Shown piece by piece: positions 46,261 to 59,496 of a stretch of DNA of 64,000 bases. Location: NCBI GenBank assembly GCA_900498245.1, contig LS998015.1, positions 679,205-743,204 of the forward strand, given 5' to 3'. A program made the position numbers and the translations under genes. The first letter of the stretch is position 1, and every line of letters begins with the position of its first letter. Under the pieces are notes generated by a model that saw only the letters and a program-made list of their open reading frames with translations, searched no databases and was not told the origin of the DNA. This stretch comes from Candidatus Zixiibacteriota bacterium. Lineage in GTDB: Bacteria; Zixibacteria; MSB-5A5; GN15; PGXB01.

Positions 46261-47502
46261 ATGAAAAGAACGGGAAAGTTCAAAGCCGGGGAGATAATCG
46301 GTCCTCGGGAACGGGGAAGTATGAATTATACAAGTTTGGGTTTCGGAGGGAGCGGTCCCGGAAATCTGGTGTGGCGGGCCGAGGATTTCAGGCCCGGCCG
46401 ATTTCGACTGGAATTATATCGGTTTCTGCGCGACAATATCCCTTTGTTGCATGCCTGTATCTGGACCTGGAGCCGGCTGTCATCGGCGCCGGGGCGATTT
46501 GAGATAATCGAGCCGGCATCACAGGCACAGGAAAAGCGGGGGGTTCAGATATTAGAGGAATTGTCGCAAAGGATCTATCCCTATCAATATCATAAAATGG
46601 GCGGACTGGAATCATTCCTGCCGCTCTTTTTCAGTTCGCTTTTTACCGACGGGGCGTTCGCCGGTTTTATAGTCATACAGCCGGACCTGAGCGGGGTCGA
46701 GCGGTTCCTTCCGATCGATCCTTCGTATATCACCGCTGACGACAACCAGAATCTCTACCTGGAAACGGAAAAGGGATCATTCAAACTGGAGGGAGACGAT
46801 TTTTATTATTTCGGTCTTAACAGCGACATAAAAAGCGGCCAGGGAAAATCGATCCTGAGTTCGGTGCCGTTCGTGGCGCATATCGAGCAACAACTGGTGG
46901 ATGACATGCGCCGGGCATCGCACAACGCCGGTTACCACCGGTTGCACGTGAAGATCACGCCGCCGGATAAATTGTCGGGAGAGAGTGACGACGCCTATGT
47001 CAATCGGGTCAATGAATATTTCGACGACACCGTTGATATGATCAAAGGGTGCGAGCCGGAGGACAATCCGGTGACGTGGGACAATGTGAAGATCGAATAT
47101 ATCGGCCCGTCGGGAACGGCGGCCTCGGGCAACGCCTGGTTTTTGAATCATCGGGCGATGATCGAAGAGATCTGCGCGGGGACGAATTTATCGCCTTTCA
47201 TGCTGGGATTCAGTTACGGCACGACCCATAACTGGGCGCAGTTCAAATTCGACCTGGTCATGCGGCAGGTGATTTCGGTGCAGAGGCAGGCGGCCCGTTT
47301 CCTGGAGTGGCTCGGCAATATCGAATTGGGGTTGAAAGGGTTATCCTGCCGGTGCCGCTATAATTTCGATAATACGCTCAGTTACCTGGCCTCCGACCGG
47401 GCCGAGATTGAGAGGACGCGGGTGGAAAATATAATCAAACTGCATACGGCCGGGCTGGTGACACGGGAAAAGGCCGAAGAAGCAGTCTCGCGGCTCGTTT
47501 AA
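46261..47502 (+). CDS. phage portal protein
   Basis: A 413-residue portal protein, the dodecameric ring at one capsid vertex through which DNA enters. The N-terminal region (RLELYRFLRDNIPLLHACIW), the central IEYIGPSGTAASGNAWFLNH and the conserved C-terminal helix region MIEEICAGTNLSPFMLG, followed by NWAQFKFDLVM, match portal families of tailed phages. It lies directly before the large terminase. That order is reversed from the usual terminase-then-portal arrangement. AAGGAAGAA precedes the ATG. It is the first gene of the locus. Confidence 0.85.
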   Translation: MKRTGKFKAGEIIGPRERGSMNYTSLGFGGSGPGNLVWRAEDFRPGRFRLELYRFLRDNIPLLHACIWTWSRLSSAPGRFEIIEPASQAQEKRGVQILEELSQRIYPYQYHKMGGLESFLPLFFSSLFTDGAFAGFIVIQPDLSGVERFLPIDPSYITADDNQNLYLETEKGSFKLEGDDFYYFGLNSDIKSGQGKSILSSVPFVAHIEQQLVDDMRRASHNAGYHRLHVKITPPDKLSGESDDAYVNRVNEYFDDTVDMIKGCEPEDNPVTWDNVKIEYIGPSGTAASGNAWFLNHRAMIEEICAGTNLSPFMLGFSYGTTHNWAQFKFDLVMRQVISVQRQAARFLEWLGNIELGLKGLSCRCRYNFDNTLSYLASDRAEIERTRVENIIKLHTAGLVTREKAEEAVSRLV

Positions 47503-47506
47503 GAAT

Positions 47507-48832
47507 TTGTTCAAGCGAAATAAATGGCGCCGGGCGATCGCGGACATCCCCTTTTTTGCCCGGGAGTTTCTTGATATCGAGTTGCACCCCGGGCAAATCC
47601 GCTGGCTTGAGGGAAGTACCAAAGCGGAAAATCTTCTGGTGACCGGGAACCGGTGGGGAAAATCGTTTGTCACGGCGGTAAAGATAATTCATCATGCCTT
47701 TTTCCGGATGCGGGAGCCGCGTTATGATCGGAGCGGTAAATATCATATTGTCACGGCCAGTCTGACGCTGGATCAGGCGCGGATTATTTTCAACACGGCG
47801 GTTCGTATCCTCAACAGCAATTGCCGGATCGGGGGGGTAATAAAAAAGATGACGGTGACGCCGTATCCCCGCCTTGTTTTGGGAAACGGAGCGATAATCG
47901 AGGCCCGTTCGACGCAGCGACGCGGCGAATACCTTCTGGGAAACGACTACGATTATTTTATCTATGATGAAATAGCCTTCGACGACGAGGCGGAATATGT
48001 GGTCAATGAAGTGGTCAAGATGCGGCTGGCCGACCGCAAGGGGAAACTGGACCTGATTTCGACGCCCAACGGGCGGAACTGGTTCTATCAGAAAATGAAG
48101 GAACTGAAGGAGCGCCCGGAGGACGCCTATGTGCAAGGGGGTGATTCCCGGGAAAATTGTCATATTTCCGAGGAATATCTGGCGATGCAGATGAAATACC
48201 TGAGCGACCGGCGGGTAGCGCAGAATATTATGGGGCAATTTATCGATTCGGGCGGCGAGATAATTCCGGGCCGTGATATCGACGCCGCCCTTATAAAGAA
48301 GATAGAAGCGCCGGAAGAAGAATTAACGGCGGATAAATTCTATATAACCGGCTGGGATCTGGCGCGCAAGAAAACGGCGACGGTCGGGATTACGGTGCTG
48401 GTAAGAGAAGGGGTTAGTACAGTGGTTGATCTGTGTCGGATAAAGAAATGGGATTGGAACGTGATTATTGCGGAGATCAGGAATCGCCAGAAACGGTACC
48501 CCGGCCGACTGGTGATCGATGCTACCGGGTTGGGGGATGTGGTGGCGGCGCAACTGGCCGATTTGAATCCGCTGTCGTTTATTTTCACGCCAAAGACCAA
48601 GGCGGAACTTCTGACCAACCTGGAACTATTTCACAGCATGAAAAAAGTCAAGTATGGACGTTGGGAAATTCCCGATGATAGCGGCAGGGTCTGGTCGCTG
48701 GAGGACGAACTGAGGGGAGCCCGGTGGGATGACAACAATACCTGTGACGCCGTGATGGCGCTGGCGCTGGCCCTATGGCCGCTGTATCGCCCGGATCAGC
48801 CGATTATAGGAGCGCGGGTGGGGAAAATATAA
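47507..48832 (+). CDS. phage terminase large subunit
   Basis: A 441-residue packaging motor. The ATPase half has Walker A TGNRWGKS (residues 46-53), Walker B YFIYDEIAF (about 150-158) and coupling motif DLISTPNG. The nuclease half, RNase H-like, shows acidic residues in GWDLARKK, VIDATGLGD and CDAVMALAL. The start is TTG at 47507, five bases after the portal stop; no ATG or GTG lies in frame near it. No small terminase gene was found upstream or downstream, so DNA recognition would need another protein. Confidence 0.94.
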   Translation: MFKRNKWRRAIADIPFFAREFLDIELHPGQIRWLEGSTKAENLLVTGNRWGKSFVTAVKIIHHAFFRMREPRYDRSGKYHIVTASLTLDQARIIFNTAVRILNSNCRIGGVIKKMTVTPYPRLVLGNGAIIEARSTQRRGEYLLGNDYDYFIYDEIAFDDEAEYVVNEVVKMRLADRKGKLDLISTPNGRNWFYQKMKELKERPEDAYVQGGDSRENCHISEEYLAMQMKYLSDRRVAQNIMGQFIDSGGEIIPGRDIDAALIKKIEAPEEELTADKFYITGWDLARKKTATVGITVLVREGVSTVVDLCRIKKWDWNVIIAEIRNRQKRYPGRLVIDATGLGDVVAAQLADLNPLSFIFTPKTKAELLTNLELFHSMKKVKYGRWEIPDDSGRVWSLEDELRGARWDDNNTCDAVMALALALWPLYRPDQPIIGARVGKI

Positions 48833-49244: not shown

Positions 49245-51056
49245 ATGGAAAATCTGGTAGGAAAAATAACGGCGTCACTTTTGGAAAATGAGCCGGACAG
49301 AATTTCGGAACTGGCGAACCTTATCAATTCTAATATCAAGCCGCCGGAGCCGATTCGAGCCGATGAAGTGGAGATTCGGGCGATGTATATCGTCTCGGAT
49401 CAGGTCAACAGTTACGGAGGGTGTTTTCCGCCTGACGAGCATCAGAGCCTGATAAATCTGTTGATTGATTCCCCGGTCCTGGTGGGGCACCGGAAAGACA
49501 GCCTGCCGATCGCTCGGAATTTTCATGCCGAAGCGGTCCGGCGCGACGGGGCCAATTGGGTTAAAGTCTATTTTTACTGGCGGAAAGATTCCGAACCGGG
49601 CGAGGAATTACGAAAAAATATCGACAGCGGCATCTATAAAGAATGCTCGATAAGTTTCATATTCAGTTTCCCGGAGTGTTCGATTTGCGGGGCCGATATC
49701 CGGGAGTGCCGTCACCGCCCGGGGGAAATTTACGAAGTTGACGGAACCAAGAGGGAGGCATATTTCAATTATCGCGAGATCGAAAAGGTGCTGGAAACAT
49801 CGCTGGTTTATCGCGGTTCGGTCGAAAACACCGCCATTACGGGAGAATTGTTTATGGGTGGCAAGGATATTGGCGGCGATAGCGAATCCAAAATAGAAGA
49901 TTCAAGACTAAAATATCACCGCATCTGGAGTATCGATGCCCTTGATCCGGCGCAACGGTACATGGTAATGCCGGCATATGAATCAATTCCGATCAGGTTA
50001 ATTCATAAAGAACAGGCGCTGAGTTTGCAGACGGCAGAAAAGGAGTTGGAATCATCGCGGTTACAGCAGTTCGCGTGTCGTCTGAATTTCCCCGAAGGGA
50101 ATTATGTTCTGGAGGGGTGCCTGCTTGGCTATCGCGGCAAGGAAAGACAAACCCCGCAGGAGATCGAGTCCTATCTGGCGGGGCGCAAGTCAGCGGTTCA
50201 CCGAATGGAGTTGAAGGTTATTGACATAATCGAGCAGGATAATCAGAGGGTCGCGGAATTGAGCGGGAAAGAACGTCATGCCCGGTTGCATCAAATTCTT
50301 GGCGAAGAGAATCGATTTTTGCTTCCGGTCGAGGAATGCGGCGATGCTGATTTGGGTCCGGCGACGGAAAGACTCTCCACCCGTTTTGGGACATTGATTT
50401 TTTCGGCCGATTCCGAAAGCCGGTTTTTCCTTCCGCGGCGCCATCTTTTCCCGGCGGTAATCAGTGACAAGGAGAAATGCGGAAGTCAGTACCGCTATCG
50501 TGTCGGTTGCATCAAGGCCGGGGAAGAATTACAGATCGCAACGATGATATCTTCGCCTATGGATATTGAGGCAGGTCAGATAGTTGAACTGGAAGTTGCC
50601 GCATTCAAAATTGAAAATGATCACATCAAAGTTTCAGAGCCAAGGCTGGTGCATTTTTATCATGACATGATAAGGATGCAAGATATTTCATTGTTGGCCG
50701 CCGCCGGCGAATTGTCGATTGAGGGGTATGAACTTCTTTCAAAGGGGGAGGCCGCTTTTCTGAAGATTTCCGAAGGGAAGGGGAAGGAAAGTATTTATCG
50801 ACTGAGCAATTTCTCAGAATCATCTTTCCTTGCGGGGAAACGGTTTCTTGCCGATGCAGCGGCGTTGTCAGAGACAGAATCATCAGACAAAATTATTTCA
50901 GGAAAGGCGAGAATAAAAAAGGCGGGAGAAAGTTTTTGTCTGGAGACAGGGTCATCGGGAGAGAAGTTGTATCTGCGCCGGATTGTTCTTCACGGGAAAG
51001 CGCGATTTCTATTATATCGGACCGGTGCCGAGGCCGGGGAGTGTTCCCATGAATGA
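49245..51056 (+). CDS. capsid-locus fusion: protease-like N-terminus plus degenerate ATP-dependent DNA-ligase-like C-terminus
   Basis: A 603-residue protein. Residues 40-210 resemble phage prohead-protease or maturation proteins placed before the capsid gene: VEIRAMYIVSDQVNSYGG, SPVLVGHRKDSLPIARNFHA, a Cys/His cluster (Cys145, Cys148, Cys155, His157) and LETSLVYRGSVENTAI. From about 225, the order of segments follows ATP-dependent DNA ligase: MPAYESIPIRLIHKE (motif I place, without the KxDG lysine), NFPEGNYVLEGCLLGY (motif III-like), MELKVIDIIEQ with LSGKERHARLHQIL (motif IV-like), and an OB-like ending IVELEVAAFKIENDH. The ligase fold would be inactive and might serve DNA or head binding. 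This reading is by eye. GGAGG precedes the ATG. Confidence 0.7.
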   Translation: MENLVGKITASLLENEPDRISELANLINSNIKPPEPIRADEVEIRAMYIVSDQVNSYGGCFPPDEHQSLINLLIDSPVLVGHRKDSLPIARNFHAEAVRRDGANWVKVYFYWRKDSEPGEELRKNIDSGIYKECSISFIFSFPECSICGADIRECRHRPGEIYEVDGTKREAYFNYREIEKVLETSLVYRGSVENTAITGELFMGGKDIGGDSESKIEDSRLKYHRIWSIDALDPAQRYMVMPAYESIPIRLIHKEQALSLQTAEKELESSRLQQFACRLNFPEGNYVLEGCLLGYRGKERQTPQEIESYLAGRKSAVHRMELKVIDIIEQDNQRVAELSGKERHARLHQILGEENRFLLPVEECGDADLGPATERLSTRFGTLIFSADSESRFFLPRRHLFPAVISDKEKCGSQYRYRVGCIKAGEELQIATMISSPMDIEAGQIVELEVAAFKIENDHIKVSEPRLVHFYHDMIRMQDISLLAAAGELSIEGYELLSKGEAAFLKISEGKGKESIYRLSNFSESSFLAGKRFLADAAALSETESSDKIISGKARIKKAGESFCLETGSSGEKLYLRRIVLHGKARFLLYRTGAEAGECSHE

Positions 51057-51345
51057 AAACGGCAAGCGGGGTCGGTTCATGATAATAAATAAATCGCTGT
51101 TCAATTTTATCATGGTGCTTCTGGGGATGTCGGGGGCCTATTTCACGACTATCGGGAACATCAAGATGCAACTGGCGGAAAAGGCGGAAACGGTTCTGGT
51201 GGAGGCGCTCGACAAGAAACTGGCCCGGATGGAAGTGGTGATCAAAGAGGGGCGGGTCAGCAAAGATGAATTTTTCCAATTTCGCAATAATGTGGAATCG
51301 CGCCTGGCGCGAATCGAATTTTACTTGGCGGAGGAGAGGAGATAA
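51049..51345 (+). CDS. small membrane-anchored coiled-coil protein
   Basis: A 98-residue protein. One transmembrane helix (FNFIMVLLGMSGAYFTTIG, about residues 16-34) is followed by a charged coiled-coil (MQLAEKAETVLVEALDKKL onward). The layout recalls XhlA- or spanin-like phage proteins, but its position among head genes is unlike a lysis cassette. ATG 51049 overlaps the preceding stop by eight bases and has GGGGAG seven bases upstream; ATG 51079 is an internal alternative. Confidence 0.65.
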   Translation: MNENGKRGRFMIINKSLFNFIMVLLGMSGAYFTTIGNIKMQLAEKAETVLVEALDKKLARMEVVIKEGRVSKDEFFQFRNNVESRLARIEFYLAEERR

Positions 51346-51347
51346 AG

Positions 51348-51761
51348 GTGCCGCAAATACACAAGAGTCTTGAAAAAATTGAGGCATTCTGCCGGTATCT
51401 CGAGGCGGAGGCAATGGAAGCAATCAATTTTGACGATATCCGGGCGGTGCTCGAGAATTCGGTGCAGGATCTGAAGGGGCTGAGTCAAATCGCGGCGGAA
51501 CTGGCTTGTTTGAAAGAGGAGTATCGGGCCCGGATAGCGGGAATGCTTCGGGCCAATCTGGCCAGCCGCAAGGATGAAGATGACGCCGAACTGCTGTGCC
51601 GTGTCTCCGATTCATTCGAAGGAATCGAAGCGGAGGAACTGGTGCGGTTGTATGATCGGACGGTGCGTCGTTTCCGCGAAAATTTTCCGGCCAGTTTCAA
51701 GTATCTGGCGCACGGGGCGGAGAGGGGCGCGCGGCGCGACTGGAGCGAGCATAAAATATAG
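51348..51761 (+). CDS. hypothetical helical protein of the capsid locus
   Basis: A 137-residue, highly charged, mostly helical protein with no family I recognise (LEKIEAFCRYLEAEAMEAI, then EEYRARIAGMLRANLASRK). It starts with GTG at 51348, two bases after the previous stop, with GGAG eight bases upstream. Position before the decoration and capsid genes suggests a scaffold or head-assembly role. Confidence 0.6.
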   Translation: MPQIHKSLEKIEAFCRYLEAEAMEAINFDDIRAVLENSVQDLKGLSQIAAELACLKEEYRARIAGMLRANLASRKDEDDAELLCRVSDSFEGIEAEELVRLYDRTVRRFRENFPASFKYLAHGAERGARRDWSEHKI

Positions 51762-51842: not shown

Positions 51843-52265
51843 ATGGGAATAAGGGATCAAAATCTCGAAGCAATTGCGCCGGTGCTGGCGACTTTCGCCA
51901 TTGCGCAGACAGTGAGTGTCGATGATCTGAAAGACGCCGATATCGGCAAGGCGGTGACACTGACGGCCAGTGATACGGTCGGGCCGTGCAGTTCAGGGGC
52001 ACAACTTCTGGGAAAGTTGGTGGCGCTGACATTGACCGACGCCGATGACGGGGAACGGCAGGCCACCATTCAGATCGGCGGTATTTGCCGCCTGCCGATT
52101 TCGACAACCTATCCGGTTGTCGGCAACCGGGTGGTCGGGGGAGTGTCGGGAACGGTGCGCCAGGCCCCGGTCCTGACAGGTTACGATCCGGCGGGAGGAA
52201 ATATCGCCCGGGGGACAGTCCTGGCGGTTAACGGCACATCCGATTGCATCATTTATCTGAATTGA
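51843..52265 (+). CDS. capsid decoration-like protein (DUF2190-like)
   Basis: A 140-residue beta-rich protein placed immediately before the major capsid gene, the normal place of head decoration (cement) proteins. ATIQIGGICRLPIST, YPVVGNRVVGGVSG and RGTVLAVNGTSDCIIYLN resemble the DUF2190/decoration family. It would trimerise on the capsid surface. AAGGAGA lies five bases before the ATG. The 81 bases upstream contain only small GC dyads. Confidence 0.7.
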   Translation: MGIRDQNLEAIAPVLATFAIAQTVSVDDLKDADIGKAVTLTASDTVGPCSSGAQLLGKLVALTLTDADDGERQATIQIGGICRLPISTTYPVVGNRVVGGVSGTVRQAPVLTGYDPAGGNIARGTVLAVNGTSDCIIYLN

Positions 52266-52276
52266 GGGAGGAGACA

Positions 52277-53377
52277 ATGAACATGAACCAAATATTTCAA
52301 CGGGCGGCCGGCCGCGAGGAGAATGATTTGAGCCGGCGGGAACTCAACGGGCCGGTCGATCTGGGACGCGCCGCCGAACTCAATATCGACAAGGAGACTT
52401 ATCTCGAGGCCGATGCCCGGGGTATGACGTTGAGCGAATTGCTGGAGACAGGGGATTATGATCCATCGCCGGCCGCGTGCCCGCTCGATGCTTTTGAACG
52501 TCAGCTGGCGCTGGCGGGAGTCCGTCTGGGGGGATCGAAGGCGACGACGGTGGAGCAGTTCTACCAGAAGGCGCCGGCCTTAATGCCGGAATTTATTCTG
52601 CGGGAAATCAAGAAGGGTCAGGCGATGCGCCCGGAGTTGAACGCGATCATTGCCGGGACGACCACGGTGGCGAATAACCGCTATACGCCGTTCCATATCG
52701 ATACCTCGTCAGCCGACCGTTTTTCGCTTCGCTCAATCGGCGAGGGAAGCGAAATTCCGCAGATTCTGGTAACCGAGCAGAATCACTCCATAAATGTCAA
52801 GGAGTACGGTCTCGGGCTCAAGGCGAGTTACAAGGCGCTGCGGTACCGGACGACGGCGCAATTCCGGGTTTTGTTGTGGTATATCGGCTTCAGGTTGCAG
52901 ACCGATAAAATAGGGCTGGCGGTCGATTGCCTGATAAACGGCGACGGGAACGCCAATGCCGCTTCGGTCGTGAATGCCGAAACCTCGGGCACGCTCACCT
53001 ACGACGACCTGGTGACGCTCTGGTCGCAATTTGCACCATTCGAAATGAATACAGTCATCTGCCATATCGGCCAGTTGAAGAATATTCTTCTAATGGAGGA
53101 ATTCAAGGACCCGATGGCGGGGTATCGTTTTCAGAACCGGGGGGAACTGTTCAGTCCGCTGGGGGCGACTCTGGTGCGTTCCGACAATATGCCGGGTGAT
53201 CTGGTTATTGGCCTTGATTCGCGGTTCGCCGTGGAGGAAGTCATCACGCAGCCGCTGATGGTGGAGTACGACAAGATCATCGAGCAGCGTTTTGAAGAAG
53301 CGGTTATTTCCGAATCGGTGGCGTATGCCAAGGTGATAAGAGAGGCCGCGGTGGTTCTGGATACGGTTATCTCGTGA
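52277..53377 (+). CDS. phage major capsid protein
   Basis: A 366-residue protein with the composition and order of an HK97-type coat protein: a charged helical N-terminal arm (residues 1-80) and a core beginning near ALMPEFILREIKKGQAMRP. Capsid-like segments include SIGEGSEIPQILVTEQNHSINVKEY in two parts, LQTDKIGLAVDCLINGDGN, and the typical C-terminal ADDS-like end EAVISESVAYAKVIREAAVV. GGGAGGAG precedes ATG 52277; a second ATG at 52283 is possible. A stem-loop follows the stop. Confidence 0.84.
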   Translation: MNMNQIFQRAAGREENDLSRRELNGPVDLGRAAELNIDKETYLEADARGMTLSELLETGDYDPSPAACPLDAFERQLALAGVRLGGSKATTVEQFYQKAPALMPEFILREIKKGQAMRPELNAIIAGTTTVANNRYTPFHIDTSSADRFSLRSIGEGSEIPQILVTEQNHSINVKEYGLGLKASYKALRYRTTAQFRVLLWYIGFRLQTDKIGLAVDCLINGDGNANAASVVNAETSGTLTYDDLVTLWSQFAPFEMNTVICHIGQLKNILLMEEFKDPMAGYRFQNRGELFSPLGATLVRSDNMPGDLVIGLDSRFAVEEVITQPLMVEYDKIIEQRFEEAVISESVAYAKVIREAAVVLDTVIS

Positions 53378-53389
53378 GACATTTAATTT

Positions 53390-53412
53390 CGGCCCGGTGA
53401 CGAGCCGGGCCG
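53390..53412 (+). terminator. GC hairpin just after the capsid gene
   Basis: A perfect 8-bp stem CGGCCCGG-N7-CCGGGCCG begins 13 bases past the capsid stop. No T run follows. It may stabilise the capsid mRNA end or cause partial termination. It also argues against the GTG at 53397 as start of the next gene. Confidence 0.5.
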
Positions 53413-53429
53413 ATGCAATCAGGAAAAAG

Positions 53430-54842
53430 ATGAATAAATATCTGTTAAACAGCGGAGGGTCATACCCGGCGGGAATCTCGCCGGGCAAAAAAATCTTCCG
53501 GGTCGAATCGGGAATATACGCGGGCAGAATCGCGGCGCTTATGGCGTCGACGGGCTCAGAAATAAAACTGGCCTGGGCCGATTTCCCGTACCTGTCGTGG
53601 AGCGAGCCGGAGACCGTTTTCGATGACGCCGCCGATTATCCGTTCGATGCCGTGATGGACGGCGCAGGGAATATATACGCGGCGTACACGCTCGCGGTTA
53701 ATTTCAATCTGGTTGTCAGAAAACTGACGTTTTCTAACGGCACCTGGACGGCCGGAGATCTCGGCACTATATACGACGGCGACGACAACTATTATCCCTC
53801 GATAGCCATCGAGCAGTCAGGCCGAATCTGGGCGGCCTGGTGCAGGAATGTTGCCGGGCAATACTATGTGAATATTAAACTCTCCGACGATGACGGTCTC
53901 ACCTGGCCGTCGGGGGTGTCAAGTTTCGGGACGATCCTCAGCGCGGCGGGAACGACGGCCTATCCCAAAATCGTGATGGCCGGTCAGTACTGTTATGTTT
54001 TCTACACCCTGGGGGCCGACAAACTGGGCTACCGCCGGAAGCATGTCAATATTTCGTCGTGGGAGGCCGAAGTGCAAATTGTGAGCGGGACCGCTCTTGA
54101 CGATGATTTTGACATCACTGTCTCCGAAGATGGAAGGATCGGGCTGGTTTTCGATGATGATAAAATACGGTTCCTGGAGTACAATAATAATGTCTGGAGC
54201 GGAATCGGCGACATTGATGAGTCCGGCGGGATATCGCCTCAAATCAAGTATATCGATAATATCCCATATATAATCTACCTGTCCGATTACGGTTCAAATC
54301 AAAGAAGGGTGCTTTACAGTGATCGGCTTCAGGGATCGTTTTCATATCCGGCGCCGCTTGATGCGAGGGAAAATGTCCTCTCGCGTGTGTTGTGCTATCG
54401 AGCCATATCGGGGGTCTTTCGGGATCTGACAGAAGCCGCGGCCGATGCCGTCACGGCTGATATCTATCATGCCGATTCCGGAGCGATGTTCGAAGAGGTC
54501 GGGGACGCCCTGTATCTGGGGATGGAGGATCGTTTCAATTTTGTCAAAATCATTTTGTCTGCCGCCGGTTCAGGCGGCACGGTCTCATGGCAGTACTGGG
54601 ATGGAGTAACATGGCAGGGATTTGCACCATCGGGCGGGGAGTATCATTTTGAGAGCGCGGACAGGGAATTGCTACTCTGGGACGATAGCGGCTCGATACC
54701 GGGGGGATGGCAGAAAAAGAGTATCGAGGGTCACAATCTGTACTGGATTCGGGTTACAGTTCCGGCGCCGTTTTCTTCCGGCCCGATTGGGACGCAAATG
54801 ACGGCGATCGGGAATAATCTCGGAATAATAGTGATGGAGTAG
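53430..54842 (+). CDS. beta-propeller protein of the capsid locus
   Basis: A 470-residue protein dominated by four or more propeller-like blades with Asp-box-like turns (DGAGNIYAAYTL, IEQSGRIWAAWCRN, SDDDGLTWPSG, SEDGRIGLVFDDDK). A C-terminal beta-sandwich follows (VSWQYWDGVTWQGFAPSGGE, then YWIRVTVPAPF). This matches adhesion or receptor-recognition proteins of phages. No signal peptide is present, so it would be part of the particle. ATG 53430 has AGGAAAA at normal distance; the upstream GTG at 53397 lies inside the hairpin. Confidence 0.7.
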   Translation: MNKYLLNSGGSYPAGISPGKKIFRVESGIYAGRIAALMASTGSEIKLAWADFPYLSWSEPETVFDDAADYPFDAVMDGAGNIYAAYTLAVNFNLVVRKLTFSNGTWTAGDLGTIYDGDDNYYPSIAIEQSGRIWAAWCRNVAGQYYVNIKLSDDDGLTWPSGVSSFGTILSAAGTTAYPKIVMAGQYCYVFYTLGADKLGYRRKHVNISSWEAEVQIVSGTALDDDFDITVSEDGRIGLVFDDDKIRFLEYNNNVWSGIGDIDESGGISPQIKYIDNIPYIIYLSDYGSNQRRVLYSDRLQGSFSYPAPLDARENVLSRVLCYRAISGVFRDLTEAAADAVTADIYHADSGAMFEEVGDALYLGMEDRFNFVKIILSAAGSGGTVSWQYWDGVTWQGFAPSGGEYHFESADRELLLWDDSGSIPGGWQKKSIEGHNLYWIRVTVPAPFSSGPIGTQMTAIGNNLGIIVME

Positions 54843-54845
54843 GTC

Positions 54846-55664
54846 ATGCCGTACACTAGTATCGATCTTATCAGGAATCATATCAATTTCGAAGGGATTC
54901 CGATCGGCGGGAAGCGGGACTATCCGGTGATATTTTCCGGGACACAATGGAATTCATTGCCGAACAAGAATCTGCTTGCGGGAAGTGTGGCCGTGAAGGC
55001 CAGAGGGAGTGAGGAGCCGATCGGCAAGAGTATTGTGCTGGGCAATGAACCGGTGGCGCTGACTTCGGGGAAAATAGCGGTGGGGTCGGTAGCGGCGGCA
55101 TCGGACAGTTCACTCGGAACGATCTACACGGAAAATATTGATTATGCCATCGACCCGGCCAACGCTACGATTATGCGAATCACCGGCGGGAATATTGCCG
55201 AAGGGACTCAGATTGCGGTTTGGTATCGGCCCTATATTGTCTATGAAGAGGGTGTCGACTATAGTGTCAATTATGCGGAAGGGGAGGTCCGCCGGCTGGC
55301 CGGTGGAGCCATACAGGACAATCAGGCGGTTCTGGTCGATTACGAGGCGACGGCGGGTGTTATGGGTGATGTTATTTTCATGCAAGCGGTCTCGGAGGCC
55401 AATTCCATAATTGAGAGCGAAATTGATTCCGAGCGGTCATTCGGAGCCGACCAGGCCCTGCAGACAGCGGCAACCTATCTGGCGGTATCGATTGTCTGCC
55501 GGATGGCCGTATCGGGTGCTCTGATGCTGGCATCGGGGGTTCGCATGGCGCCAAGCGGGCAATCGTGGCTGGCGCTGGCGGAGAGTTACCGCGGCGACTA
55601 TGAGCGGCTGATTAAACCGTACCGGCCCCACGCGGCCCGGTTGAGCGGGCCCGCCAGAACGTGA
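54846..55664 (+). CDS. hypothetical head-tail-connector-region protein
   Basis: A 272-residue protein I do not recognise. The N-terminal two-thirds alternates short beta strands (IAVGSVAAASDSSLGTIYTE, IAVWYRPYIVYEEGVDYS) and the last third is helical (ALQTAATYLAVSIVCRMAVS). The position, four bases after the propeller gene and before small genes, is that of head-completion or connector proteins. No signal peptide. Confidence 0.62.
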   Translation: MPYTSIDLIRNHINFEGIPIGGKRDYPVIFSGTQWNSLPNKNLLAGSVAVKARGSEEPIGKSIVLGNEPVALTSGKIAVGSVAAASDSSLGTIYTENIDYAIDPANATIMRITGGNIAEGTQIAVWYRPYIVYEEGVDYSVNYAEGEVRRLAGGAIQDNQAVLVDYEATAGVMGDVIFMQAVSEANSIIESEIDSERSFGADQALQTAATYLAVSIVCRMAVSGALMLASGVRMAPSGQSWLALAESYRGDYERLIKPYRPHAARLSGPART

Positions 55665-55675
55665 GAGGAGAAATC

Positions 55676-56044
55676 ATGAACAGTTTGTCATATTTGAGAG
55701 GGAGGCGGCTCTGGATGGTTCCGGATGTTCTGGTTTGGGGAAAATCCGACAGTGCGGAACTGCATTTCCTGACTGTCTGCGAAATCGAAAATCAGACAAG
55801 AGTCGGCTATGGCCAGAGACTTCTGGGAGGAGAGAGGCAAGATATACTTTTCATCGATCTGGTCGATTTTCGGGGAAACCATCTGCCGGCAACAATAAAC
55901 AATCCCAAAGTAATCGTGCAGAGCCGGTCACGGGAGGCGGCATTCCTTCCGGGAGGAGAATCCAGTACCGGTTTTCGGATCGCGCGGGACAGTGCCTCGC
56001 CGGGACCGGTGAGAGTCGATCTATTCATTTATGAATTGGGATAG
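55676..56044 (+). CDS. hypothetical capsid-locus protein
   Basis: A 122-residue beta-rich protein (WMVPDVLVWGKSDSAELHFL, DILFIDLVDFRGNHLPATI, VRVDLFIYELG) without a recognised family. AGGAG lies six bases before ATG 55676. It sits between the connector-like gene and an 85-residue protein, all in the same direction with short gaps. Confidence 0.6.
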   Translation: MNSLSYLRGRRLWMVPDVLVWGKSDSAELHFLTVCEIENQTRVGYGQRLLGGERQDILFIDLVDFRGNHLPATINNPKVIVQSRSREAAFLPGGESSTGFRIARDSASPGPVRVDLFIYELG

Positions 56045-56063
56045 GAAGGGTGGAGGAATCAAG

Positions 56064-56321
56064 ATGACGGCGGAGAAGGCTGAATCATACACCGATCTCG
56101 AAATGATGGAAATTATGATAAATGATCTATTTGAGAAGTTCAGGAATAATTCGAAAGGTGTCAAGGTAGGAGATATTATGAAAATAATGGAATATAAGAG
56201 GAAGATAACCCTGTCGGATAAAAGCGAGAGAAAGTTCTGGGAGATGATCAATGGTATCCGAGAAGCGCATCTTGCCGGGGGAAAAAAGAAGAAATCTTCA
56301 GGGGCGGAGAAAAAAGCGTGA
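56064..56321 (+). CDS. small helical capsid-locus protein
   Basis: An 85-residue acidic then basic protein: helical segment YTDLEMMEIMINDLFEKFRN, then VGDIMKIMEYKRKITLSDKS, ending in a Lys-rich tail (GGKKKKSSGAEKKA). The basic tail could bind DNA. TGGAGG lies before ATG 56064 at usual distance. Its stop overlaps the start of the next gene by one base. Confidence 0.58.
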   Translation: MTAEKAESYTDLEMMEIMINDLFEKFRNNSKGVKVGDIMKIMEYKRKITLSDKSERKFWEMINGIREAHLAGGKKKKSSGAEKKA

Positions 56322-57610
56322 TGAAACGAACCCACGGGGGAATTATTCGGATAATCTGGCGGTTGCCCCTGGTATTGCTGGCGGTATTTCTGCAGGGAAC
56401 GGGGCGGGCGCAGGATATCAATTCGTGGCACGCTTCTCTATCCCGGGAAGGGAATGACTCGCGGATTCTGGGTCGTAATTTGACGGTCGATATTGGAGAC
56501 TCGATCGGAAAGGATTTTTCCCCGAAGATTACGCTTTCGGCGTGGAATGAAAGGGCGGTCATAACCGTGTTATTGGATCGGGGGGGTAGAAGTGAACCGT
56601 ATGTTACGGCGCCAATCATAGTTTCGGGTAAGCCGGGTTTTATGATTCGGCGGGACAGTCTGGAAACGCATCAATTTTATATCAGACCCGACAGCGGTCT
56701 GGAGTGGGAAATTATTTTGGAAAAGCCGCCGGATTCAAATATTCTCATTTTCCCGATAGAATCGAAAGGGCTGGAATTTCAGTATCAAGGGATGTTGAGT
56801 GGGGAAGAGATCTCCATGGGGGTGGAACGGTCGGATAGTGTCATCGGTTCATATGCTGTCTATTATAGCGGTGAGCCGGGGAATCATGTTACGGTTAAGG
56901 GAAGCGATACCGCCTATGAGAATTTTTCGACGGGGAAGGCTTTTCATATTTATCGGCCCCGGGCGCGCGACAGCCGCGGGTGGACGGTCTGGTGCGGCCT
57001 GTCGATTGATTCGGTTTTTGACATCGCCATCCCGGCGGATTTTTTTGCCAACGCCGAATATCCGATTACGATCGATCCGACTTTCGGCAACAGCACGGTC
57101 GGCGCCAGCACGGCCTATCTGGTATCAAACGGCTGCCAGGCGCTATCCGAGAATATATCGTACCGTCACACCGCCTCAAGCGGGGAGATAATTACATCAT
57201 ACAGTATTTACTGCCTGACTTACACGAGCCCGGCCTATGTGGCTCTGGCGGCCTATTCATATGTTGACGGATATCCGGCGGATCGTCTGGCAATGCCGAC
57301 CACCCTGACAGTCACCAATGGTTCGATGCAATGGAACACAAGCGGGACGGTATCGCAGGGGATGACAGGAGGAACGACTTATGTAATCGCCTACGGCGAA
57401 GTGGCTCCGTCATCGAGTGTCCGCTGTCGATTCGATTCGGAGGCGAATATCTGCTCGATTCACGGTAATAGCACTCTTCCGGTGACCTGGGTGCCGTACG
57501 GGTATGTCAGCAACCGCTGGTCGATTTATGCGACATATACGGCGGGAGCGACCGGGGCCGACAATTATCGCCGTCGGGCAATTGTATCCACAGAATTTCC
57601 GGGAGAATAG
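56321..57610 (+). CDS. signal-peptide protein of the capsid locus
   Basis: A 429-residue protein. Its N-terminus looks like a signal peptide (basic MKRTHGGIIRIIWR, hydrophobic LPLVLLAVFLQG, then GRAQD). The mature part is beta-rich: PITIDPTFGNSTVGASTAYL, ISYRHTASSGEIITSYSIY and later strands as in phage fibre or host surface proteins. Export of a phage structural protein is unusual. It may be a fibre added from outside or a secreted effector. ATG 56321 (one-base overlap with the previous stop) is preferred; GTG 56318 is the alternative. Confidence 0.65.
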   Translation: MKRTHGGIIRIIWRLPLVLLAVFLQGTGRAQDINSWHASLSREGNDSRILGRNLTVDIGDSIGKDFSPKITLSAWNERAVITVLLDRGGRSEPYVTAPIIVSGKPGFMIRRDSLETHQFYIRPDSGLEWEIILEKPPDSNILIFPIESKGLEFQYQGMLSGEEISMGVERSDSVIGSYAVYYSGEPGNHVTVKGSDTAYENFSTGKAFHIYRPRARDSRGWTVWCGLSIDSVFDIAIPADFFANAEYPITIDPTFGNSTVGASTAYLVSNGCQALSENISYRHTASSGEIITSYSIYCLTYTSPAYVALAAYSYVDGYPADRLAMPTTLTVTNGSMQWNTSGTVSQGMTGGTTYVIAYGEVAPSSSVRCRFDSEANICSIHGNSTLPVTWVPYGYVSNRWSIYATYTAGATGADNYRRRAIVSTEFPGE

Positions 57611-57612
57611 AA

Positions 57613-59139
57613 ATGAAAGCTATAATGTTAATCAGTACGTGGGTCGTTTTAGTTTCAAGCAATGGATTCGGATTCGGCCTGGTGAACAATTCGACGGTTT
57701 CGGTGACGGCGGAAGATTCCCTCTGTATTCCGTTTTTCAATCTGGACAGTCTGGGGCGGAGTATCGGCGGTCTGGATACCACTAAGGTAATGGCTTTTTA
57801 TCCTAACGGGGATTCGGCCTTTTGCGAGGCGGTGGCCGGAGTGATCGGGCGGGTAAAAGTGAGTGTCGATAACGGCGATACCGTCTATCGCTGGACGGCC
57901 CAGGTTTCTGAAATCGACGGTACCGGTGGGGCCGGGTTGTATGCGGTCAAAATAACGGCCAAATCGGACCAGACCGGCGGATGGCTGACGACGTCGCGGA
58001 CCTCTTCTTTTCAGTTGATCAATCAAAACTTCAACGACATCCTTCAGATGACAATCGATTCTTTAAAGGCCGTTCTCGATTCTGTACAGAATTTTCATAA
58101 CTGGGTCGGCAATGTCCGGTACACCAATCCCGACTCGACTCTGAGCATCAAGAGATTCGCGGCATCGGGAGCCAATGGTTCGAACGGATCGTTCTATATT
58201 TATAACAGCAACGGGACGGCGGGGATCTTTAACGCCGCCGGGGGGACGGGAGAAAACGCTTTTCACGGTCTTTCAATTAGCGGAAGCAATGCCGGGGCGG
58301 GAATCAGATCTATCGGGGGGATTCAGGGACACGGCGCCGTATTTGGCGGAGGAGCATCATCGGGCAACGGAATTCAAACCTATGCCTATAACGGTGACGG
58401 TATCCGCAGTTTCGCCATAACCTCAGGCAATGGAATCAGCGCCGATGGAGCGGGAACAGGTTTTGTCGATATCGCGGCGCCCGAGTTCGCGGACACCATC
58501 GCCAATCGGGTCCTGGAAGATTCCTTGCATTATCAGGGGTCATTTTCCGGGGGAGGATCGGGGCCAATTTCGGTTCAGGTCCTGGCGTACGACAGTTCTC
58601 TTGAGCAAATTATACCGGGCGTAAATGTAGCCATAAGGAATATCGAGCAAACGGCCCTGATAGCGCTGAACGGCACCGGGACAGACGGGAAAGCGGCGTT
58701 CAATCTCGCGGCCGATTCATTTCTGGCGGTGGCCTTCGCACCGGGATACATTTTTGAATCATATGATACTTTGATTGTCGAGGCGGCCAATGTTGATACT
58801 ATTTGGGGATGGCGATTCGATCCGGGGAATCCATCGGCGCCGGAATTATGCCGGGTGTATGGTTTTTTGTATGATATTTCCGGAAATCCGGAAAACGGGG
58901 CGGTGGTGACAGCCTGGTTGCCGTCGGGGGTCGGCCGAAAGGATAATAGTATCATTTCGCCATTTAAGACAACGGCGCTTTCCGATTCTGCCGGCTACTT
59001 TTATCTCGATTTGATCCCTAACGAAAAAATGATTCCGGCCAATTCGAAATATGAAATAACGATAACCCGTACCGACGGGACGATTCTGCGGCAGAGGGTG
59101 GTTGTGCCCGAAAGTCCCAGTTGGCTTTTAACCTGGTAA
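57613..59139 (+). CDS. signal-peptide, glycine-rich fibre-like protein with carboxypeptidase-regulatory-like C-terminus
   Basis: A 508-residue protein with a probable signal peptide (MKAIMLISTWVVLVSSNGFG). Residues 170-310 form a Gly/Ser/Asn-rich region with repeated short strands (GSNGSFYIYNSNGTAGIFN, GENAFHGLSISGSNAGAGI), typical of tail-fibre or beta-solenoid proteins. The C-terminal 180 residues hold one or two carboxypeptidase-regulatory-like sandwiches (CRVYGFLYDISGNPENGAVV and SDSAGYFYLDLIPNEKMIP), ending in PESPSWLLTW. Similar endings occur in phage tail proteins. GGGAGA precedes the ATG. It is last before the holin. Confidence 0.68.
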   Translation: MKAIMLISTWVVLVSSNGFGFGLVNNSTVSVTAEDSLCIPFFNLDSLGRSIGGLDTTKVMAFYPNGDSAFCEAVAGVIGRVKVSVDNGDTVYRWTAQVSEIDGTGGAGLYAVKITAKSDQTGGWLTTSRTSSFQLINQNFNDILQMTIDSLKAVLDSVQNFHNWVGNVRYTNPDSTLSIKRFAASGANGSNGSFYIYNSNGTAGIFNAAGGTGENAFHGLSISGSNAGAGIRSIGGIQGHGAVFGGGASSGNGIQTYAYNGDGIRSFAITSGNGISADGAGTGFVDIAAPEFADTIANRVLEDSLHYQGSFSGGGSGPISVQVLAYDSSLEQIIPGVNVAIRNIEQTALIALNGTGTDGKAAFNLAADSFLAVAFAPGYIFESYDTLIVEAANVDTIWGWRFDPGNPSAPELCRVYGFLYDISGNPENGAVVTAWLPSGVGRKDNSIISPFKTTALSDSAGYFYLDLIPNEKMIPANSKYEITITRTDGTILRQRVVVPESPSWLLTW

Positions 59140-59157
59140 ATAAACCAAGGAGGTTCT

Positions 59158-59496
59158 ATGCAAATTGCACTAATTCCGATTCTCGGCTCGGTTCTTGATT
59201 TTGTCATCAATAATTTTATCGCTCTGGCGGGCGGCGCCACGACCATTTTCATGGCGCTGGTGGTCTGGTTCGCCAAGAAATACCTGGCCCCGTATTTGAA
59301 AGTCGAAAGCCGCCGCCGTTACGCCGAATATATCGCCGTAATCGCAGATGAAATCACCGATGATCTGGTCCAGCGGTACCCCGATAACGGCTGGATGAAA
59401 CGGCTCGATGAAGCGGTGGATAAATTGATTGATGTCTGCGGAATAGATTCCGAAATCGCCAAGCGGGCGGTTTCGGCGGCGCTATCGCGCAAATAA
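59158..59496 (+). CDS. holin, LLH-family-like
   Basis: A 112-residue protein: N-terminal hydrophobic region with one or two membrane segments (IPILGSVLDFVINNFIALAG, ATTIFMALVVWFAKKYLAP), then an amphipathic helical tail (RRRYAEYIAVIADEITDDL onward). This is the layout of LLH-family phage holins. No endolysin gene lies next to it. AAGGAGG four bases before the ATG gives strong translation. A bidirectional terminator follows and closes the locus. Confidence 0.75.
   Translation: MQIALIPILGSVLDFVINNFIALAGGATTIFMALVVWFAKKYLAPYLKVESRRRYAEYIAVIADEITDDLVQRYPDNGWMKRLDEAVDKLIDVCGIDSEIAKRAVSAALSRK

Follow-up and report, generated by a model that had tools for sequence, protein, structure and literature searches.

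The window analysed here, a stretch of 64,000 nucleotides from the Candidatus Zixiibacteriota contig LS998015.1, contains a 13-kb portal-terminase-protease-decoration-capsid cluster whose genes are all encoded on the + strand. The portal protein (46261-47502; phrog_3753, E 3.4e-20) and the terminase large subunit (47507-48832; PF03237, E 1.5e-9; phrog_2, E 6.6e-35) are followed by the gene under study (49245-51056), an open reading frame that was confirmed to be real and whose product of 603 aa has homologues and a structure model. Downstream, a small protein with one hydrophobic stretch (50983-51345; the true start probably lies within the listed ORF) and a 137-aa protein of unknown function (51348-51761), both conserved in position, precede a head decoration or virion structural protein (51843-52265; phrog_4588, E 1.8e-7; phrog_122, E 9e-4) and the major capsid protein (52244-53377; phrog_3922, E 4.2e-63). 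Then come a 481-aa protein of unknown function (53397-54842), a 272-aa protein (54846-55664) that partially matches a major tail protein carrying an Ig-like domain (phrog_807, E 2.9e-8), and proteins of 127, 96, 430, 508 and 112 aa (55661-59496), the last of which ends the cluster and appears holin-like by eye. The genes at 56318-57610 and 57613-59139 have, also by eye, signal-peptide-like starts, which are unusual in a phage head cluster.

A search of the 3.5-Mb single-contig genome for the tape-measure family PF10145 came up empty, and PHROG and further searches recognised neither a tail sheath nor a tube gene in the cluster; there is thus no clear sign of a complete tailed particle. The 603-aa protein itself is composed of a protease, a pseudo-ligase nucleotidyltransferase (NTase) domain, an OB fold and a pseudo-phosphoesterase, in this order, as shown with the support of predicted structure models.

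The N-terminal protease domain

Searched alone against Pfam, the 603-aa protein gave zero matches, not even to a peptidase, and no ligase was found for it in Pfam, PHROG or the PDB sequences. Its best PHROG was phrog_16951, of unknown function, at aa 26-188 (E 7.8e-11), and its N-terminal third weakly matched phage 'head and protease' proteins in a sequence search. These results neither back nor contradict the ligase-like fold claimed by the initial annotation, and homologues were therefore gathered. The N-terminal ~200 aa are kept throughout these homologues, and the part downstream ranges from about 40 to 567 aa.

The head-maturation protease domain covers about aa 20-198 (49302-49838), and its identity is supported by both its homology to phage head proteases and its location in a head gene cluster. 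His82 (codon 49488-49490) and Ser135 (codon 49647-49649) are invariant in the alignment and are inferred to be the catalytic residues, without any Pfam peptidase match. The CxxC...CxH metal site lies at 49677-49715. The initial annotation had described the N-terminal half as a protease-like phage protein with a Cys/His metal site, and had placed the gene in a capsid locus; all of this held, since phage homologues are named 'major head and protease' and 'head maturation protease' proteins, C145-x2-C148...C155 is invariant with H157 nearly so, and the gene sits within the portal-terminase-protease-decoration-capsid cluster. The nearest phage records align only with the protease part. Among them, the 'major head and protease protein' of Flavonifractor phage Cormatin and the 'head maturation protease' of Enterococcus phage fHoEfm07 have N-terminal domains homologous to that of the window protein, at about 25-30% identity. 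The Cormatin gene lies between the portal and major head genes; its product of about 230 aa is without ligase or phosphoesterase, unlike the 603-aa window protein.

Folds and lost residues of the C-terminal module

Because the single-sequence searches of Pfam, PHROG and PDB were blank for a ligase, detecting the fold needed profiles and structure. A profile of the C-terminal part of the window's family aligned with intact ligase homologues along 374 columns that run from the adenylation domain to the C-terminus (probability 99.55%) and hit other phage ligases directly at 82.9%, while reversed and column-shuffled decoys reached at most 2.7%. The AlphaFold2 model of the window protein, whose input alignment excluded the members of families f11 and f19 with intact ligase motifs, had a mean pLDDT of 84, and DNA ligases led its Foldseek search of the PDB (best E 2.8e-10). 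VIA-align superposed residues 216-513 of the model on the P. furiosus DNA ligase (2cfm) with Z 21.3 and rmsd 3.3 over 277 residues, and the model on the LigD ligase domain (6nhz) with Z 16.4. By model and profile, the window protein meets the NTase + OB fold criterion of ATP-dependent DNA ligases (PF01068; 2cfm; 6nhz), and has both folds in common with them: the NTase domain at about aa 217-400 (49893-50444), on the basis of profile comparison, structure model and residue checks, and the OB fold at about aa 401-478 (50445-50678), from the AlphaFold2 model and VIA-align.

In contrast to these enzymes, the window protein lacks the KxDG lysine and the catalytic residues of motifs III-V. The place of the lysine is occupied by Ala244 (codon 49974-49976; 'VMPAYESIP') and is Ala in all 11 members of the window's family (f1); the motif III Glu, the motif IV Glu and Lys and the motif V lysines are also absent. 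From this residue loss the ligase domain is inferred to be catalytically dead, incapable of nick sealing and adenylation. The residue at the lysine place differs among lineages. It is Y or H in f2, L in f3, f8, f14 and f18, V in f9, and H, L or Q in a third phylum; f4 mostly has R, H, Y or F, and one of its genomes (G071) has a lysine there, with the other ligase motifs absent. Near-invariant residues kept in f1 and f4 are P243, Y245, the RGKxR segment 297-301 (50133-50147) and G382.

The last ~110 residues were modelled alone. Plain Foldseek with this isolated domain gave no significant match, and the LigD phosphoesterases surfaced only after VIA re-ranking, in which four LigD 3'-phosphoesterase entries had Z 10.7 to 9.1 (3p43, 10.7; 3p4h, 9.8; 3n9b, 9.1) and the next fold 4.2. 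The domain, at about aa 490-596 (50712-51032), is thus predicted by the model to meet the criterion of the phosphoesterase beta-barrel fold. The His/His/Asp/Arg of the LigD phosphoesterase active site are absent from it, and both His and the Arg are present in five out of five intact homologues that reach this part. As in bacterial LigD, ligase and 3'-phosphoesterase folds occur in one chain; however, LigD has polymerase, phosphoesterase and ligase domains, whereas the window protein has the order protease-ligase-phosphoesterase, no polymerase domain was found in it, and both of its enzyme folds are, judging by residue loss, dead.

The initial annotation had read residues 225-475 as following the segment order of ATP-dependent DNA ligases with an OB-like ending, missing the KxDG lysine and catalytically dead, and had proposed an HHpred-type search and a structure prediction as checks. 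Both were run, with the profile match and ligase superposition given above, and the segment order, the OB-like ending and the missing lysine all held, so its pseudo-ligase inference is supported, in part through model prediction. Its claim of lost catalysis, which remains inferred from residues, was understated, as motif III, IV and V residues and those of the phosphoesterase are lost too. It had seen neither the third domain nor the homologues with intact motifs that other host families and phages carry, nor the vertical inheritance of the cluster. Its suggestion of a DNA-binding or head-assembly part is still an inference; the net charge of the window ligase region, considered as a sign of DNA binding, is -7 and does not favour general DNA binding.

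Inheritance and relatives of the fusion

A homologue of the protease gene was found in 119 of the 132 genomes of the Zixibacteria class examined, nearly always in single copy; one further match, the 120th, belonged to an outgroup. The gene order of the cluster is largely kept across 18 families, and flanking TPR, PEP-CTERM and dockerin genes are also conserved within the window's own taxonomic order. In the tree of concatenated cluster genes all 18 host families were monophyletic, with 17 changes, the minimum, versus a shuffled mean of 53. With each host family thus grouped as a clade, the cluster is vertically inherited at host-family level and is not an occasional prophage; this co-descent was judged via host-family labels, without an explicit host marker tree. 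In f6, f7, f13 and f17 (L056, L120, L064 and L058), families that make up one clade, the 127-aa and 272-aa genes have traded places.

Intact ligase motifs occur in only two host families, f11 and f19, whose C-terminal part contains the textbook EPKYDGVR, ILDGE, FDILYLDG, EGAIIK and WFKWK and matches Pfam DNA_ligase_A_M (E 3.6e-30 to 4.9e-27), with a match to LigD_N below threshold; in the other families this part is decayed or deleted. The ligase core is gone and the C-terminal domain retained in f16, the ligase region is shortened in f4, and seven families have no recognisable ligase part. A stop codon follows the protease in G027 and G037; the frame is open in nearly all genomes. The ligase-phosphoesterase module is dispensable, because the ligase core or the entire C-terminal part has been deleted in several families and two genomes stop after the protease. 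By simple counting, with dS above 1 in some pairs, the protease had a dN/dS of 0.01-0.11, compared with 0.08-0.13 for the C-terminal part where it is intact and 0.19-0.36 where it is decayed; selection on the decayed part is relaxed yet still purifying. Three loci (L052, L053 and L054) have an extra segment between protease and ligase with a GYSDxxID-type motif, resembling a pol-beta-type nucleotidyltransferase. The same type of segment lies ahead of the ligase in ANMV-1 virus (L134) and in L181; it has no Pfam match and is absent from the window protein.

Five IMG/VR contigs contained the protease-ligase fusion with KxDG intact, a sixth being cut before the protease, and at least two of the five carry phage tail genes. 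One of these contigs (L274) shares with the window the arrangement portal, fusion, decoration, capsid. On other stretches of the contigs there are a tail sheath gene (L283), tail fibre and spike genes (L282), and a portal gene as well as a weak tail-spike match (L281). Viral scans with the window protein, A3 or the ANMV-1 ligase as query gave nothing, and the A5 and A6 queries gave matches. Five further loci labelled viral in IMG/VR (L190-L193 and L196) were excluded as phage evidence because they nest within host family f34 of a second phylum; they are likely host elements mislabelled as viruses.

The 'ATP-dependent DNA ligase' (AJP62006.1) of ANMV-1, an archaeal virus, is a chain of NT-like, ligase and phosphoesterase-like parts homologous to the window module. 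Unlike the window protein, it has no protease domain and its ligase motifs are intact. It is encoded by a gene of its own that immediately follows the portal gene. ANMV-1 head proteins other than the ligase showed no recognisable kinship when compared with the window cluster. The product of this ANMV-1 portal gene (L134:1913-3193) is a 'MutT-like phage hydrolase' in GenBank, but a portal protein according to Pfam (PF06381, E 3.2e-22).

In the second phylum (centre G138; L161-L180), 35 of the 39 genomes had the protease in one copy, protease-only in the examples read, and this locus is likely a related, vertically inherited element. Homologues of the portal, capsid and 272-aa genes also occur at many of these loci, but are arranged differently. 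Five of the six genomes of the third phylum (centre G223; L181, L182, L186, L188, L189) had the protease; three of these five proteins have a fused ligase without the lysine, one lacks the ligase core, and one is protease-only.

Origin and present role

Gene transfer agents (GTAs) have been defined as caudoviricete-derived, endogenised elements that co-diversify with their hosts, package mostly random host DNA without fully packaging their own genome, and deliver DNA to other cells (PMC9662315). Among these criteria, the cluster meets caudoviricete-derived proteins, full endogenisation (presence in 119 of the 132 genomes of the class, a conserved gene order and, within the window's taxonomic order, conserved flanks) and vertical inheritance or co-diversification, the last by family clades in the absence of a host marker tree. 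It shares these three features with RcGTA, BaGTA and BhGTA, but there is no evidence of particle, packaging or transfer and no recognisable full tail module, and it lies outside the three GTA groups classified in PMC9662315. We lean, with some reserve, towards a phage-derived, GTA-like element, for which particles, packaging and delivery are inferred only. The open-access literature searched yielded no earlier account of a GTA in Zixibacteria, of a protease-ligase fusion or of this element, although such an account may still exist.

The explanation that we prefer by a modest margin, taken as a whole, is a head protease with a former end-repair module in a domesticated GTA-like cluster, the module now being a non-catalytic tail. 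Its computed part, namely the folds, the residue loss, the synteny, the family-level co-descent, the intact viral and f11/f19 versions and the purifying selection, is shown. Caudoviricete head proteases work inside the procapsid. An ancestral phage fusion would have joined the protease to an end-repair module of ligase adenylation domain, OB fold and LigD-type 3'-phosphoesterase; in the phage relatives, the protease probably brings this module into the procapsid, and its cleavage would leave the module inside the head as cargo that could heal or seal the ends of DNA. After domestication this cargo would have lost catalysis in most host lineages, and the dead fold may now be a tail of the protease that serves in scaffolding, space-filling, or contact with DNA or portal inside the head. 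Such a structural role is suggested because the fold is retained under purifying selection. Procapsid entry, the cargo role, the present structural role and particle formation are inferences only, and no data show that particles form or that the module enters a head. The simplest history runs from an active phage fusion to domestication, with separate losses of catalysis in the window's order, the f8/f9/f14 group, f18 and the third phylum; replacement of a dead by an intact ligase in f11/f19 is not excluded.

The main rival, which remains possible, is a fading relic, in which the ligase-phosphoesterase part is functionless and being lost and the protease alone matters. It is favoured by the seven families without a recognisable ligase part, the lost core in f16, the shortened region in f4, the stop codons behind the protease of G027 and G037, and a C-terminal dN/dS several times that of the protease. 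However, this ratio (0.19-0.36) is well below 1, the structure model still predicts the fold confidently, f1 and f4 hardly vary at P243, Y245, RGKxR and G382, and the reading frame is open in nearly all genomes. It is unlikely that ligase-like activity, or a nucleotide or DNA-end sensor, is kept via other residues: the preserved fold of the NTase pocket, the lysine of G071 at the motif I place and the conserved RGKxR segment speak for it, but motifs I, III, IV and V are jointly lost in the window family, G071 is without the other motifs, and the window ligase region is negatively charged. An ordinary recent prophage with an odd protease, suggested by every recognisable gene being phage-like, is all but excluded by the occurrence in 119 of 132 class genomes, the conserved order and within-order flanks, and the family-level co-descent.

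A bolder version of the preferred reading of a domesticated head protease with a non-catalytic tail would be an ancient GTA-like system, vertical across most Zixibacteria and with relatives in at least two further phyla, which originated from phages that loaded ligase and 3'-phosphoesterase into the capsid by fusion to the head protease, and in which host domestication repeatedly killed the enzyme and kept the fold. These claims are tentative, and we incline slightly against all of them holding jointly.

The analysis points to a phage head cluster that is passed on vertically across the class, in an uncultured lineage without any GTA in the literature searched. Its fusion joins capsid maturation with NHEJ-type DNA end repair, a pairing not described in that literature, and the homologues form a natural series that starts with intact versions (phages and f11/f19), passes through dead but folded ones (most of the host families that have the domain) and ends with deletion. 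This series makes the role of a pseudoenzyme in a domesticated phage testable.
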